From positions 3,426,167-3,490,166 of the forward strand of contig NZ_JAFMZZ010000001.1 of the NCBI RefSeq assembly GCF_017356245.1: a DNA stretch of 64,000 nt, in the 5' to 3' direction. Both the position numbers and the translations under genes were made by a program. The notes under the pieces are model-generated. The model was not told the origin of the DNA, did no database searches, and was given only the letters and a program-made list of their open reading frames with translations. Source of the DNA: Bordetella petrii (GTDB lineage Bacteria > Pseudomonadota > Gammaproteobacteria > Burkholderiales > Burkholderiaceae_B). Below, piece after piece: positions 5,857-50,915 of the stretch; within the stretch, counting starts at the first letter, position 1; every line of letters begins with the position of its first letter.

Positions 5857-5941
5857 ACAGTCGCAGGCACCGCACACTGCCGGCATCAGGCTCCTTCGAA
5901 GCCTGACAGCCGGCGCGGCGCACGCGCCACACATACCGAAT

Positions 5942-6188
5942 GGCCACCGTCGCCGCGCAGGGCGGCGACGATGGCCGGCCCCATACGCTTTTTCTCTTTC
6001 AAAAGCGGCCCCCAAAAATGCAAGAACCCAACTCGTCCCAGCCGCTCAGGGAATGGCCACAGCTGCGAGTCGTTGCGGGGCGGTGTGGCTGCCGCGGCGC
6101 CTCGGAGCCGGGCCCGGGCGCGCTGGGCGCCCGGACGGCTCCGTGAAGCCAAGGCAGCCACGCCACCCCGCGACGACGCCAGAAGAAC
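5942..6188 (+). repeat. Covarying structured repeat (about 249 bp), copy 1
   Basis: A 247-bp element between convergent genes. It begins with a hairpin of 15-bp arms and a 5-nt loop (5942-5956 with 5962-5976, 14 of 15 paired). A conserved CTTTCAAAAGC and GCAAGAAC tract follows, then a 25-bp stem (6069-6093 with 6153-6177) enclosing a GC-rich core with an inner 7-bp stem (6104-6110 with 6136-6142). It ends in GACGCCAGAAGAAC. The same layout with different stem sequences recurs at 10583-10831 and 10928-11176. Whether it acts as RNA or as a DNA cruciform is unknown. Confidence 0.85.
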
Positions 6189-6218
6189 GTCGCCCACCGT
6201 CCGGCCGAACAACCCCCT

Positions 6219-6923
6219 TCACCCCTTCCGCACGTAATCCGGATAGCGCTCGCAGATTTCATCCACCTGGCTCAGCGTGCCCGACAGATGCTCGCGCAGC
6301 GCCTCCTGCGCCCCCCCGGCGTCCTGCCGCGCGATCGCGTCCACGATCCGCTGGTGGTCGCGCAAGATGCGGTCGGCCTTGCCCGTTTCGGGCAGGTGCA
6401 GCCGCCGCAGCCGGTCTACATGGCCGCTGTAGCGCTGTTCCAGTTCCCACAGCCCCGCCACTCCCGCGGCCTGGTGCATCTCGCGGTGAAAGGCCCGGTC
6501 GGCGTCCAGAAAGCCCTGGTAGCGGTCGGCGCCGCGATTGGCGCGCTGCATGTCGATGTGCGCGCGCAGCCGCTCGACCAGCGCCGGATCGTCGCGCCCG
6601 GCCAGCACCCGCACGATCTCCAGTTCCAGCGAACGGCGCAGGAAATGCGCCTGCCGCGCCGCGGCGATGTCGATGCGGCTGACCGCAGTGGTGTGCTGGG
6701 GGTAGATATCCACCAGCCCCTCGTCGCGCAGCTGGCTCAGCGCATCGCGGATGGGCGTCTGGCTGAGCCCGAAGGCCTCGGCCAGTTCGCCGCGCGCCAA
6801 AGGTTCGCCCGGCTTCAGTTCCAGCGACACGATCAGGTCGCGCAGTTTCTCGAAGACCTGCGGCGCGGCGTGGCGCGAGCGGTCCAGGCGCAGGTCGGCA
6901 GGCAGGGATTGCAGCGTGGGCAT
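6219..6923 (-). CDS. GntR/FadR-family (FCD) transcriptional regulator
   Basis: A 234-residue regulator with an N-terminal GntR winged helix (about residues 20-80; recognition part AEAFGLSQTPIRDALSQL) and an all-helical FCD ligand domain (about 90-215) that in this family binds a metal and an organic acid. The start at 6923 (MPTLQSL) is preferred over an upstream in-frame ATG because the extra 17 residues reach into the operator region. It is divergent from a sugar-acid dehydratase operon; a perfect 14-bp palindrome sits between them. It most likely represses that operon until a sugar-acid intermediate appears (inference). Confidence 0.87.
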   Translation of the reverse strand: MPTLQSLPADLRLDRSRHAAPQVFEKLRDLIVSLELKPGEPLARGELAEAFGLSQTPIRDALSQLRDEGLVDIYPQHTTAVSRIDIAAARQAHFLRRSLELEIVRVLAGRDDPALVERLRAHIDMQRANRGADRYQGFLDADRAFHREMHQAAGVAGLWELEQRYSGHVDRLRRLHLPETGKADRILRDHQRIVDAIARQDAGGAQEALREHLSGTLSQVDEICERYPDYVRKG

Positions 6924-6980
6924 GGGCGAATCTGGCAACAAGAATGACCCGATTGTAGCGGCCGGCCCTGCCATTGACGT

Positions 6981-9566: not shown

Positions 9567-10556
9567 ATGAACCCGATCCGACGGCGCCATCTGGCCCTGA
9601 CCCTGGCCGCGGCCGCGCTGGCCGCCAGCGGCCTGTCCGCCCACGCGGCCGACTGGCCCAACGACAAGGCCATCTCGTACGTCGTGCCCTTTACCGTGGG
9701 CGGCTCTACCGACGTGGTGGGCCGGCTGCTGGCCCAGAAGCTGGGCGAACGCCTGCACCAGAGCGTGGTGGTGGAAAACAAGCCGGGCGCGGCCGGCGCT
9801 ATCGGCGCGGCCTATGTGGCCAAGGCGCCGGCCGACGGCTACACCCTGTTCGGCGGCACCATCAGCACCCATGCCATCAACGCCAGCCTGTACAAGAACT
9901 TGCGCTACGACCCCGTGAAGGATTTCGAGCCCGTCACGCTGGTGGCCACGCTGCCCAACGTGCTGCTGGTCGACCCCAACCTGGGCGTGAACTCGGTGGC
10001 CGACCTGATCGCGCTGCTCAAGCGCGACCCGGCCAAGCGCACCTTCGCTTCGTCCGGCCCCGGCACGTCCACGCACCTGGCCGGCGAACTGTTCGCCGAC
10101 ACCATCGGCGTGCCGCTGACCCACGTGCCCTACAAGGGCACCCCGCCCGCGATGGTGGATGTGTCGTCGGGCGCGGTGACCTTCATGTTCGACCAGATGA
10201 CCGCCGCCCTGCCCCTGCTGCAAAACGGCAAGCTGAAACTGCTGGCCGTGACTACGCCCAAGCGCATCGCGCTGGCCCCCGACACGCCCACCATGGAAGA
10301 AGCCGGCGTGGCGGGCTTCCAGATGGCATCGTGGCAGGCGGTGTACGCCCCCAAGGGCACGCCCAAGCCCATCGTCGACCGCCTGTCCAAGGAAATCGCC
10401 GCCATCCTGAAAGAACCCGACGTGCAGGAAAAACTGGGCAAGACCATGGGGATGGAACTGGTGGGCAGCTCGCCCGAACAACTGCGCGACCTGATGGCCA
10501 GCGAAATCCCGCGCTGGGCCGAAGTAGTGAAGAAGTCGGGGGCGAGTGTGGACTGA
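9567..10556 (+). CDS. Bug/TctC-type tripartite tricarboxylate receptor protein
   Basis: A 329-residue periplasmic binding protein of the Bug family, which is greatly expanded in Bordetella and relatives. A twin-Arg-rich but Sec-like signal peptide (about residues 1-26, ending SAHA) precedes the mature start ADWPNDKAISYVVPFTVGGSTD, a Bug hallmark. The segment ENKPGAAGAIGAAYVAKAPADGYTL carries the ligand-binding loop that contacts carboxylates. The Shine-Dalgarno CGGAGA is 9 bases before the ATG. No TctA/TctB membrane components are nearby. It is the third gene of the sugar-acid unit and probably binds the aldonate or a related carboxylate. Confidence 0.9.
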   Translation: MNPIRRRHLALTLAAAALAASGLSAHAADWPNDKAISYVVPFTVGGSTDVVGRLLAQKLGERLHQSVVVENKPGAAGAIGAAYVAKAPADGYTLFGGTISTHAINASLYKNLRYDPVKDFEPVTLVATLPNVLLVDPNLGVNSVADLIALLKRDPAKRTFASSGPGTSTHLAGELFADTIGVPLTHVPYKGTPPAMVDVSSGAVTFMFDQMTAALPLLQNGKLKLLAVTTPKRIALAPDTPTMEEAGVAGFQMASWQAVYAPKGTPKPIVDRLSKEIAAILKEPDVQEKLGKTMGMELVGSSPEQLRDLMASEIPRWAEVVKKSGASVD

Positions 10557-10582
10557 AACGGTCTGGCAGGTGTGGCTTGGCT

Positions 10583-10831
10583 GTTCTTGCGGCGTCGGAG
10601 CGGGGTGGCGTGAGCGCCTTGGCTTCACGGTGACGTCCGGGCGCCCCGCGCGCCCGGGCCCGTCCCCGAGGCGCCGCGGCCCTCACGCCATCCCGCTCCG
10701 ACTCGCACCGATCGTCGTTCGCCATGCTGCCGGAACGGATTGCGTTCTTGCATGCTTGGGTCGCCGCCCTTCAAAAGAAGAAAAGCTTGCAGGGCCGGCA
10801 AATCAAGCTGCCCAGCGCAGCTTGATTTGCC
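10583..10831 (-). repeat. Covarying structured repeat (249 bp), copy 2
   Basis: Same architecture as copies 1 and 3, read on the minus strand from 10831 to 10583. The first hairpin has perfect 15-bp arms (10797-10811 with 10817-10831) and a 5-nt loop. The 25-bp stem pairs 10594-10618 with 10678-10702 (23 of 25). The core and the CCGTGAAGCCAAGGC tract are conserved. It is an inverted partner of copy 3, separated by a 96-bp spacer. Confidence 0.87.
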
Positions 10832-10927
10832 ATTCGCATGGCGACTTTTGTGAGTCTGCTCGAAGCACATCGGGCACAGCGCTTCCCAGAGCACAGTTTG
10901 CGCGCGGCGGCATGACAATGCCTGAAT

Positions 10928-11176
10928 GGAAATTCAAGCTGCGCTGGGCAGCTTGAATTTCCGGCCCCACAAGTTTTTTTTCCTTTCAAAAGCCGCAAGC
11001 CAAAAACGCAAGAACCCCACCAGCCCCGGCGATGCGGCAATGTGCGGACACCGGGAGTCGGATGGCGGGGGCGTGGGGGCCGCGGCGCCTCGGGGACGGG
11101 CCCGGGCGCGCGGGGCGCCCGGACGTCACCGTGAAGCCAAGGCCCTCACGCCCCCGCCATCCGACGCCAGAAGAAC
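10928..11176 (+). repeat. Covarying structured repeat (249 bp), copy 3
   Basis: Begins with a perfect 15-bp hairpin (10928-10942 with 10948-10962, loop GCTGG), then GGCCCCACAAG, a T8 run, CTTTCAAAAGC and GCAAGAAC. A 25-bp stem (11057-11081 with 11141-11165, complementary except one G-T wobble) encloses the GC-rich core and an inner 7-bp stem (11092-11098 with 11124-11130). It ends with GACGCCAGAAGAAC. Together with copy 2 it fills the gap between a convergent Bug receptor gene and an AraC regulator gene. Confidence 0.87.
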
Positions 11177-11205
11177 CACACACACACCCCAACGCAAAAC
11201 AAAGG

Positions 11206-12168
11206 CTAGAGGTACCTCTCCCGATACCCCACCGGCGACATCCCGCAGTATTTGCTGAAGATGTCCCGGAACGCCTTGGTATCGCTGTAGCCGACTTCGT
11301 ACATGACTTCGGCTACGGTTTTGCGGGAGCTTTCCAGCTGCTTTTTCGCCGCCTCGACGCGTATGCGCTGCAGGTATTCGACGATGCTGTTGCCGGTGGC
11401 CTGGCGGAAGCGCCGTTCCAGCGTGCGGCGGCCCAGGGCGTAGCGGCTGGCCAGCGCCTCGACGGTCAGGCGTTCGGCGTAGCGGGTTTCGATGTGCTGC
11501 TGCACCGCGCGCACGGTATCGTCGGTGTGCGCCTTGTGGCCCACGAACACCGAAAACGGCAGCTGGCTCTGGCGGCTCCAGTCCAGCTGGAAGAACTTGG
11601 CGCACCAGATGGCGGTATCGCGGTCGGTGTATTTTTCGATCAGGTGCAGCACCAGGTGCGCGGCCGAGAACGCGCCGCCGCTGGTGTACAGGCCCTGCTC
11701 GGCCATGACGATGCGGTCGCTCACCCATTGCACGGCCGGAAAGCGCCGGGCGTACAGCGGCTGCGCCGCCCAGTGCACCACTGCGCGGCGGCCGTCCAGC
11801 AGGCCGGCGGCCGCGGGCAGGGCCGCGCCCAGGCACAGGCAGGCCAGCTCGCCGCCGTTCTTGTAATACTGCGCCACCCACTCCACCAGCGCCTGGTTGT
11901 CGACCGCCGCGTCGGGCTCGGGCGTCAGCAGCGGCGGCACGACGCAGATATCCACCGGCCCCGGGTCGGACAGCACGGCGTCGGCCTGCACCTGGATGCG
12001 CCCCTCGTCCAGCAGCACCCGCGGCGTGGCGGCCAGCAGCCGCACGGCGAAACACGGCGCGCGGCCCTGCGCCCGCAGATACTGGTTGGCCGCCATGAAA
12101 CCATGGCGGGCGGTCTCCAGCGAGGCGATATTCGCCCCGGCGGGCAGCAGGAAGGCGACGTGTTTCAT
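11206..12168 (-). CDS. AraC family regulator with DJ-1/PfpI-like N-terminal domain (GlxA-like)
   Basis: A 320-residue regulator. Residues 1 to about 190 form a class I amidotransferase/DJ-1-like domain (MKHVAFLLPAG start; nucleophile-elbow-like segment ACLCLGAALPAAAGLL), which in GlxA-type regulators senses small molecules without catalysis. Residues about 215-315 are an AraC DNA-binding domain with two helix-turn-helix units (RLTVEALASRYALGRRTLERRF, and VAEVMYEVGYSDTKAFRDIFSKYCGMSP). The start at 12168 fits the domain start; a longer in-frame extension overlaps the divergent DUF1428 gene and is unlikely. The target is unknown; the divergent DUF1428 gene is a candidate. Confidence 0.88.
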   Translation of the reverse strand: MKHVAFLLPAGANIASLETARHGFMAANQYLRAQGRAPCFAVRLLAATPRVLLDEGRIQVQADAVLSDPGPVDICVVPPLLTPEPDAAVDNQALVEWVAQYYKNGGELACLCLGAALPAAAGLLDGRRAVVHWAAQPLYARRFPAVQWVSDRIVMAEQGLYTSGGAFSAAHLVLHLIEKYTDRDTAIWCAKFFQLDWSRQSQLPFSVFVGHKAHTDDTVRAVQQHIETRYAERLTVEALASRYALGRRTLERRFRQATGNSIVEYLQRIRVEAAKKQLESSRKTVAEVMYEVGYSDTKAFRDIFSKYCGMSPVGYRERYL

Positions 12169-12301
12169 GGCGCCAGCATACCGCCACAGGGCTGTCGCAA
12201 TCCACCCGCAAGATTGTCGCAATTCCCCATCGGCGACGGGCGGTTTTCCCGATACAGTAGCCGTTCGGCCTCGCGGGCCCCACAAAACCAGGAGCATTGC
12301 C

Positions 12302-12661
12302 ATGCAAGAACAGTATGTAGACGGTTTCCTGCTCGCCGTCCCGAAAGACAAGCTGGAAACCTACCGTGCCATGGCCTCGACCGCAGGCGCCGTCTGGAAA
12401 GAACACGGCGCCCTCGACTACCGCGAATGCGTGGGCGACGAGCTGAATATGGACCCGAACTGCGCGTCGTTCACTCAGGCAGCCGGCGCGGGCGAAAACG
12501 AAGTGGTGGTATTTGCCTGGATCCTGTACCCCAGCAAGGCCGACCGCGACCGCATCAACGCCGCCGTCATGGCCGACCCGCGCCTGGGCCAGTGCCCCGA
12601 GGGCGTGTTCGACATGAAGCGCATGGCCTGGGGCGGATTCCGCACCCTGGTCGCCGTGTAA
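12302..12661 (+). CDS. DUF1428 domain-containing protein
   Basis: A 119-residue protein made up almost entirely of the DUF1428 domain, a ferredoxin-like alpha/beta fold of unknown function. Family marks are the start YVDGFLLAVPKDKLETYRAMA, the acidic segment ALDYRECVGDEL, and the C-terminal DMKRMAWGGFRTLV. It is divergent from the AraC-family regulator. A GC-rich hairpin follows its stop. Function cannot be assigned. Confidence 0.85.
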   Translation: MQEQYVDGFLLAVPKDKLETYRAMASTAGAVWKEHGALDYRECVGDELNMDPNCASFTQAAGAGENEVVVFAWILYPSKADRDRINAAVMADPRLGQCPEGVFDMKRMAWGGFRTLVAV

Positions 12662-15300: not shown

Positions 15301-15395
15301 CCAGGTGTCCGACTCCCGCAGGGTGTCGGACACCGCAGGACTGAGATGGCTGTGGCCTACGGCGGTGTCAGGCACCTGGCGGAGCCTGACACCTG
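15301..15395. repeat. REPIN-like paired hairpin element, copy B2
   Basis: Two perfect 10-bp hairpins: GGTGTCCGAC (15304-15313) with GTCGGACACC (15325-15334), and GGTGTCAGGC (15364-15373) with GCCTGACACC (15384-15393). They are separated by a linker with CTGAGATGGC. The two stems differ from each other and from copy A by paired substitutions. The element lies between the hemolysin III gene and a cupin pseudogene. Confidence 0.83.
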
Positions 15396-50879: not shown

Positions 50880-50915
50880 CCAGGTGTCAGGCTCCGCAAG
50901 GTGCCTGACACCTGG
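50880..50915. repeat. REP-like single hairpin, copy C
   Basis: A single palindromic unit of the REPIN-like family. It has a perfect 13-bp inverted repeat CCAGGTGTCAGGC (50880-50892) with GCCTGACACCTGG (50903-50915). It lies between the convergent modE and ABC ATPase genes, 7 bp after the modE stop, and may serve as a bidirectional stop for both. Confidence 0.82.

Follow-up and report, generated by a model that had tools for sequence, protein, structure and literature searches.

Dispersed repeats such as ERIC, PU-BIME and NEMIS are recognised by their conserved sequence. These intergenic elements have a predicted RNA fold, and some of them are reported to affect neighbouring transcripts (PMC2267715). 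REP and REPIN sequences are tagged palindromes, many families of which are paired in opposite orientation; they lie mostly downstream of genes, between unidirectional or convergent neighbours, and G.T pairing within REPs has been taken as a hint of RNA function (PMC3733652). In Bordetella, the Bor repeats have been described as intergenic stem-loops with palindromes of 26–30 bp, the HMM family Bor-1 measuring 93–117 bp (PMC1590033, PMC2267715). At transcript ends, Rho-dependent terminators with exonuclease-trimmed 3' ends combine a C-rich, G-poor tract with an adjacent stable stem-loop (PMC7815308).

Here we describe a real, apparently new and structure-conserved repeat family, represented by three copies in a 64,000-nucleotide stretch of Bordetella petrii DNA (the window). 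The first-pass annotation of this stretch had stated that it knew of no described family with such a layout, and none was found in Rfam 15 or in the open-licence literature searched. In Rfam 15 the window gave no match at the gathering score, and six loci with long and short forms of the element (see below) gave matches only below it; literature searches on Bordetella repeats, on convergent-gene repeats with covariation, and on Rho together with Bordetella or convergent genes returned no description of the family. Of the text of the B. petrii genome paper (PMC2572626), three passages speak of a 'repeat', all of them on other matters, and the strings 'intergenic' and 'palindrom' are absent; the main text of the RepRanger study does not name Bordetella (PMC12306157).

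Results

Architecture of the element

The three copies lie at positions 5942–6188 (plus strand), 10583–10831 (minus strand) and 10928–11176 (plus strand), and the sequence confirmed both these coordinates and the near-equal lengths first reported (247, 249 and 249 nt). With their GAAT tags they extend over 5938–6188 (copy 1, single), 10583–10835 (copy 2, left member of a divergent pair) and 10924–11176 (copy 3, right member), all in the short form; copy 1 was assigned on sequence and family membership, and copies 2 and 3 on sequence and pair counts. Both tags of the pair are included in its 96-nt spacer (10832–10927), which was delimited in the pair-spacing count. On the element strand, the order of parts from 5' to 3' is a GAAY tag, hairpin 1, GGCCC, a linker, hairpin 2, GACGCCAGAAGAAC and a C/A-rich tail. 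The fold of copy 3 lies 7.1 standard deviations below those of 200 dinucleotide shuffles (z = -7.1), none of which is as low.

As had been proposed, hairpin 1 of each window copy has arms of 15 nt around a loop of 5 nt. In copy 1 (5942–5976; sequence, and covariation over 79 copies) its arms occupy 5942–5956 and 5962–5976 around the loop GCAGG at 5957–5961, with a C.A mismatch leaving 14 of the 15 pairs (GGCCACCGTC/GACGATGGCC); sequence and pair counts place it at 10797–10831 in copy 2 and 10928–10962 in copy 3. The reported 25-bp second stem was likewise found in each of the three. Hairpin 2 of copy 1 (6069–6177, defined from alignment A1, structure and pair counts) has an outer stem at 6069–6093/6153–6177 with one C.A mismatch, a conserved inner part and the tip loop GCTGG at 6122–6126; the corresponding outer stems lie at 10678–10702/10594–10618 in copy 2 (minus) and 11057–11081/11141–11165 in copy 3 (plus). 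The inner 7-bp stem described at first pass is present, but its pairing is incomplete in copies 2 and 3, where GGGGACG/CGTCACC contains a G.A mismatch at a position that is unpaired in 27 of 37 aligned copies. The islands between the stems are conserved but not, as had been claimed, unchanged: copy 2 reads CTTTTGAAGGGC where copies 1 and 3 read CTTTCAAAAGC.

Each tail runs up to a gene, the gene families being assigned with Pfam. The end motif of copy 1, AGAAGAAC (6181–6188), and the tail behind it (6181–6218, plus; sequence, and composition of 64 copies) reach the stop codon of a facing GntR-family gene (6219–6974, minus). The tail of copy 2 (10557–10582, minus; sequence) ends at the stop of a TctC-family gene (9573–10556, plus), and the C/A-rich tail of copy 3 (11177–11205, plus; sequence and composition) ends at the stop codon of a facing gene with AraC-type HTH and DJ-1/PfpI domains (11206–12351, minus).

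The family was characterised in a set of 95 non-redundant hairpin 1 copies from seven genomes (35, 17, 14, 9, 9, 6 and 5 copies). The outermost pair of hairpin 1 is G-C in 79 of 79 aligned copies, the next nine pairs are variable and the inner five are mostly GCCGC/GCGGC; the ten outer positions are largely free yet paired; 84 distinct 10-letter arms occur among the 95 copies, and the loop is GCNGG in 89 of them. The linker comprises a T-rich stretch, which begins about 11–12 nt after hairpin 1, and mostly GCAAGAACC. Hairpin 2 starts 127–129 nt past the first base of hairpin 1 in the window and combines a 25-bp stem, whose letters are largely free, with a fixed internal-loop motif (GGCGCCTCG/CGTGAAGCC) and a tip, which in the short form shares the GCNGG loop (36 of 39 copies). 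The distance from hairpin 1 to GGCGCCTC is 150–159 nt in 64 copies (154–156 nt in 52 of them), which supports the near-fixed layout noted at first pass. Since hairpin 2 runs into GACGCCAGAAGAAC and the T-rich stretch begins at a distance from hairpin 1, neither hairpin is followed by the immediate U-tract of an intrinsic terminator. A pseudoknot between the GCAGG loop and GGCCCTGC after hairpin 1 was rejected, as it fails in copies with GCTGG loops.

The full-length set, made up of the 64 copies with hairpin 2, includes 44 of the short form and 20 of the long form, which carries an extra conserved purine-rich arm and whose consensus fold (20 copies) is a three-way junction. The 32 copies scored 'without hairpin 2' are not a count of losses, as six lie at N joins or contig ends, nine have a looser motif and 17 have none. 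Some copies have nevertheless lost hairpin 2; in the G004 orthologue of copy 1 the loss, judged by eye, resembles a deletion between ACGCC repeats. The minus copies of L011 and L012, the plus copy of L009, and L145 (G004) have apparently lost hairpin 2 and kept hairpin 1, the linker and a AGAAGAAC-like end. At L156 (1757–3050, G003), a pair spacer contains repeated hairpin copies between GAAT and ATTC about 327 nt apart, apparently a tandem array.

Conserved pairing in both hairpins

According to the first-pass annotation, the stems differ between copies while keeping complementarity, and a statistical check of covariation had been proposed; both hairpins bore this out. The covariation score was 0.749 for hairpin 1 (79 of 95 copies) against 0.150 ± 0.011 after shuffling, and 0.396 for hairpin 2 (37 of 39 short-form copies) against 0.096 ± 0.008, none of 500 shuffles reaching the observed value in either case; 16 of the 95 copies were omitted from alignment A2 (hairpin 1) and two of the 39 short-form copies from A1 (hairpin 2). 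Paired cells amounted to 98.7% and 97.4%, respectively, with 340 both-sided cells against 95 in shuffles for hairpin 1 and 226 against 59 for hairpin 2. Sliding the partner by 1–3 columns left 32–50% (hairpin 1) and 35–43% (hairpin 2) of cells paired. All five measures lay above every one of the 500 shuffles for hairpin 2 and three of five did so for hairpin 1, whose weaker measures were matched by 22 (pairs with both-sided change) and 55 (further pair types) of the 500.

All 79 hairpin 1 rows came from a script demanding at least 12 of 15 pairs, a bias from which a pattern-match test is free. The pairing-blind pattern, which fixes only the tag, the tip and GGCCC, gave 63 distinct matches in the loci examined, 57 of which had nine or ten of the ten free positions in Watson-Crick pairs, compared with 2.3% after arm shuffling; these figures were unchanged when loci found by the structure model were omitted. 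The lowest two of the 63, with one and six of ten positions paired, were the two matches outside Bordetella.

Pairing is also preserved at orthologous sites, which were identified via the DNA of the faced gene. Between species, 53 copies in 22 groups give 41 orthologous copy pairs. Among these, both sides differed at 133 pair positions, of which 127 were paired in both copies; a further 31 changes were one-sided, 19 of them G.U, all these counts being of comparisons and not of independent events. As an example of compensation, the hairpin 1 arms of copy 1 given above correspond to GGCCCTCGAC/GTCGAGGGCC in G004. The linkers of orthologues have diverged, with a gapped identity of 0.77 versus 0.71 for unrelated copies, compared with 0.65 versus 0.42 for the arms.

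Strand asymmetry of pairing defects

Two explanations had been offered at first pass for the paired changes, namely selection on structure or a mechanism that rewrites whole hairpins. A defect seen as G.T on one strand of the DNA is seen as A.C on the complementary strand. Along the element strand, the defects of hairpin 1 comprised 26 G.T versus 10 A.C (p = 0.011, 95 copies) and those of hairpin 2, counted in fixed register, 63 G.T versus 11 A.C (p = 5e-10, 61 of 63 copies after exclusion of two whose register had slipped); an earlier hairpin 2 count of 75 versus 27 was set aside because the alignment used favours G.T. Since a process acting on both strands predicts equality, these defects favour selection on structure, the first of the two explanations, over wholesale DNA rewriting. 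In our reading, the asymmetry reflects selection that acts on a single strand, which would most simply be RNA; part of the G.T excess may stem from strand-biased mutation. Hairpins that are partners at the same locus are closer to each other in sequence than unlinked hairpins are (identity 0.54 versus 0.43 over ten arm positions, permutation p = 0.002), and limited rewriting of hairpins may also occur. The comparison of G.T with A.C defects offers a simple way to separate RNA selection from DNA palindrome repair in other repeats.

Genomic context and composition of the tail

Divergent pairs comprise 64 of the 95 copies, adjacent copies being arranged minus-then-plus in 32 cases and plus-then-minus in two, with pair spacers of 31–441 nt and one of 1292 nt. 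The three copies in the window do all lie between convergent genes, as had been claimed, but this does not extend to the whole family: convergent neighbours flank 21 of 30 pairs and 17 of 29 singles, compared with 8 of 62 adjacent gene pairs in the window. Neighbours were taken from codon-model gene calling, in which a neighbour was missing for two of 32 pairs and two of 31 singles; an N join affects one pair, and orthologous sites were counted separately. With a cruder gene calling, the opposing stop codon lies within 50 nt in 37 of the 50 copies that have an opposing downstream gene. At the second window locus, the left neighbour in G008 is a different gene, yet the right copy is still found beside the right gene. 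Two independent sites lie between divergent genes: L009 in G000, the window's own genome (orthologues L112 and L134 in G003 and G005), and L124 in G008. The ORFs beside them presumably resemble DedA and IlvA, and PhoB and UbiE, respectively. One gene end carries the paired element in G002 and G007, a GGTGTC-type REP in G000 and G008, and a hairpin with a T-run in G003; at the same gene end in G001, G004, G005 and G006, no paired element, REP or hairpin with T-run was recognised.

A C-rich, G-poor tract of about 90–120 nt follows hairpin 2 on the element strand. Over the 40 nt from about AGAAGAAC, C minus G is 0.36 in the 13 copies that face no stop codon, 0.28 in the 51 others and 0.11 in 27 spacer stretches; because the 13 copies without a faced stop codon show it as well, the C-rich, G-poor tail belongs to the element. 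The tract recurs at 25 ends of the G002 subfamily, where the value falls from 0.36 to 0.05 by 150 nt. By composition, the C-rich, G-poor tract that is a feature of Rho-dependent terminators is present in both sets (64 copies and 25 G002 ends).

The facing genes (47 examined) are themselves skewed towards C over G in their last 60 coding nt, relative both to 121 other genes (p = 5e-16) and to 23 element-free convergent genes (p = 2e-4), mainly at third codon positions (0.38 versus -0.035). In all four genes for which a comparison was made, orthologues with no hairpin 2 within 330 nt are skewed as well, and their mean is lower. The element was therefore rejected as the source of the skew, which these gene ends share independently of it. 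Ten genes facing copies without detected hairpin 2 showed no difference from the rest (p = 0.28). Element-free convergent genes have a mild antisense C-over-G skew in their last 60 coding nt (0.08 in 23 genes versus -0.01 in 121 others), perhaps a general property of convergent gene ends in Bordetella.

Distribution and spread

With copy 3 as the query, the window's own genome returned 41 matches (E ≤ 0.001), including some opposite-strand palindrome echoes. The covariance model R1, covering hairpin 1 and the linker, gave 197 matches in all nine genomes of the genus (G002, 78; G000, 39; G003, 17; G008, 16; G004, 15; G006, 12; G001, 9; G007, 6; G005, 5), including the copies from seven genomes on which it was built, none from G002 or G007, and with one G000 pair counted twice at a contig end. 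Further copies in relatives, whose absence would by the first-pass annotation have refuted its claim, are thus plentiful, but the family-wide search it proposed found them almost entirely in one Bordetella-containing genus. Under stricter filters, the hairpin 2 model R2 matched 10 of 268 family genomes, namely the nine genus members and, as the only one of 259 genomes outside the genus, G035; in a sample of the order it matched two of 399 genomes, both within the genus. The G035 site (L196), in another genus of the family, is a single paired site with a long-form second hairpin and a possible transfer. Beyond the genus, BLAST with copy 3 returned two matches, both weak (39 and 50 nt; G010 and G013).

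When the pattern was scanned against named genomes (84,980 species with a single genome each, perhaps without near relatives of the window's genome), 16 stretches were returned. Fourteen were in Bordetella (B. petrii BT 1 9.2, genomospecies 2 and 7, and sp. BOR01); the others, in Gemmata and Paracoccus, are the chance matches with one and six of ten arm positions paired. Phage and plasmid collections and viral contigs, the latter scanned with one pattern, gave no match.

In G002, 58 of the 78 matches form 29 divergent pairs, and the closest units compared are 92–94% identical over 875–895 nt, which looks like amplification of the pair as a unit; these units measure about 870 bp, and no long ORF was seen by eye in the spacers examined. 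In the presence/absence comparison of orthologous loci suggested at first pass, both window loci were element-free in G003 and G001. No target-site duplication was recognisable, the element-free flanks in G003 and G001 being too diverged to place the junction, and a search of G007 for the element-free site of a G002 pair found no match to the flank. The family shows a feature of MITEs, with inverted ends and multiple copies that lack a transposase gene. The same pair occurs at the end of G000:C4 and beside the N-joined junction G000:C1:3533200–3533500 (L023 and L021). Several further copies are located at an N join or a contig end; since assemblies may break in these hairpins, the counts may be low.

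The Y1_Tnp profile matched once in each of six of the nine genomes and not in G000, which has 39 repeat matches. The stretches around the six Y1 genes (2.2–3.3 kb) contain GGTGTC repeats, no hairpin 2 motif and one stray tip motif (L186). A link to a Y1 (IS200/RAYT) transposase was rejected, as the gene is flanked by other repeats and G000 lacks it. These other repeats form a second dispersed family, GGTGTCAGGCTCC..GACACC, often in inverted dimers (window 15364–15395 and 50881–50912; L181–L186). They flank the RAYT-like Y1 gene in the six relatives and are present in the window's own genome, where no Y1_Tnp match occurs at E ≤ 0.001. A loose motif places a GGTGTC-type REP in 14 of 32 pair spacers. 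As a guess from its length, the GGTGTC..GACACC repeat may be the published Bor repeat.

Discussion

The best single reading, which we hold tentatively and at somewhat less than an even chance, is that these dispersed intergenic elements of Bordetella work as folded RNA, as a two-way transcript-end element. Structure, strand asymmetry, arrangement, place and tail are computed; the course of events is proposed from sequence. The element strand would be read by transcription from the gene on its 5' side, the hairpins would block 3' exonucleases, and Rho could load on the C-rich tract, which would keep transcripts from extending deep into the opposing gene. Where two copies form a divergent pair, each would act for the gene on its far side, and the pair would be a two-way module that insulates convergent genes. 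The family also multiplies, the pair in G002 having probably spread as a unit. The pairing kept through sequence change, the excess of G.T defects, the convergent placement, the 3' ends near the facing stop and a tail that is present regardless of a faced stop count in favour of this reading. Against it count the L009 and L124 sites, where neither neighbour reads into the element, the lack of a T-run directly after either hairpin, the skew of facing genes also without the element, the persistence of at least some copies after loss of hairpin 2, and conserved linker motifs and a three-way-junction form that exceed a terminator's needs.

Mobility as the main cause is the chief rival. The family would then be a miniature mobile element that relies on its structure in order to transpose, for example as single-stranded DNA, with convergent sites merely tolerating insertion. 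The abundance, pairing and close similarity of units in G002, the empty window loci in G003 and G001, the GCNGG loop common to both hairpin tips and the sites between divergent genes all accord with it. We consider this explanation rather unlikely, as pairing is preserved at orthologous sites, no target duplication was recognisable in the diverged flanks and the Y1_Tnp search, which covers one transposase type, revealed no linked transposase. Moreover, the asymmetry was counted on the element strand in both orientations, a pattern not expected from a single DNA strand of a paired unit. Quite doubtful, in our judgement, is a combination in which the divergent pair would be a self-spreading unit, its hairpin ends (in the long form, a three-way junction) recognised through the GCNGG tip by a putative enzyme, carrying two-way terminators, settling harmlessly between convergent genes and then being kept by the host as a gene-end insulator.

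Templated correction at the DNA level, with strand switching within hairpins and between partners, could keep functionless palindromes perfect. Partner linkers, like partner hairpins, are more alike than unlinked ones (p = 0.002), and some orthologous hairpins differ at 5–7 of 15 pairs and still pair, where the facing gene is 90–93% identical. Such correction is, however, a strand-symmetric process and the defects are asymmetric; the conserved tips, internal loops, linkers and 150–159 nt spacing call for selection; and the linkers of orthologues are also near the level of unrelated copies, though the arms differ more. We regard it as very unlikely. Small RNA genes transcribed outward from the spacer and acting in trans would fit the RNA-like structure, a pair as two divergent transcripts and, by eye, a weakly conserved stretch before the GAAT tag, but are highly improbable given spacers that shrink to 31 nt, leaving little room for two promoters, and often contain a GGTGTC-type REP.

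With some 200 copies in nine genomes, the family offers naturally occurring variants for the study of how transcripts are ended or protected by RNA structure where genes converge, and it suits the question of whether a spreading repeat can become part of a host's gene ends. It is a structured repeat without an Rfam 15 match and with very strong covariation, its free stem letters being nearly always paired, within genomes and at orthologous sites.

Among known systems, GTAG- and CGTC-tagged REPs and REPINs resemble it in being tagged palindromes with opposite-orientation pairs, convergent-gene sites and G.T pairing (PMC3733652), whereas REPs measure 20–40 bp and the present element about 250 nt, with two hairpins at a near-fixed distance, freely varying stems and a GAAY tag. 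Of the GTAG REP/RAYT system, neither the 20–40 bp GTAG palindrome nor a RAYT flanked by the same repeats was found. The Bor repeats, by their described length of 26–30 bp, are far smaller. Rho-dependent terminators share the C-rich tract and stem-loop, but a dispersed conserved fold is not part of their description as given in PMC7815308. Finally, ERIC, PU-BIME and NEMIS have a conserved sequence, whereas in the present element the stem letters are mostly free and it is the tips, internal loops and linkers that are conserved.
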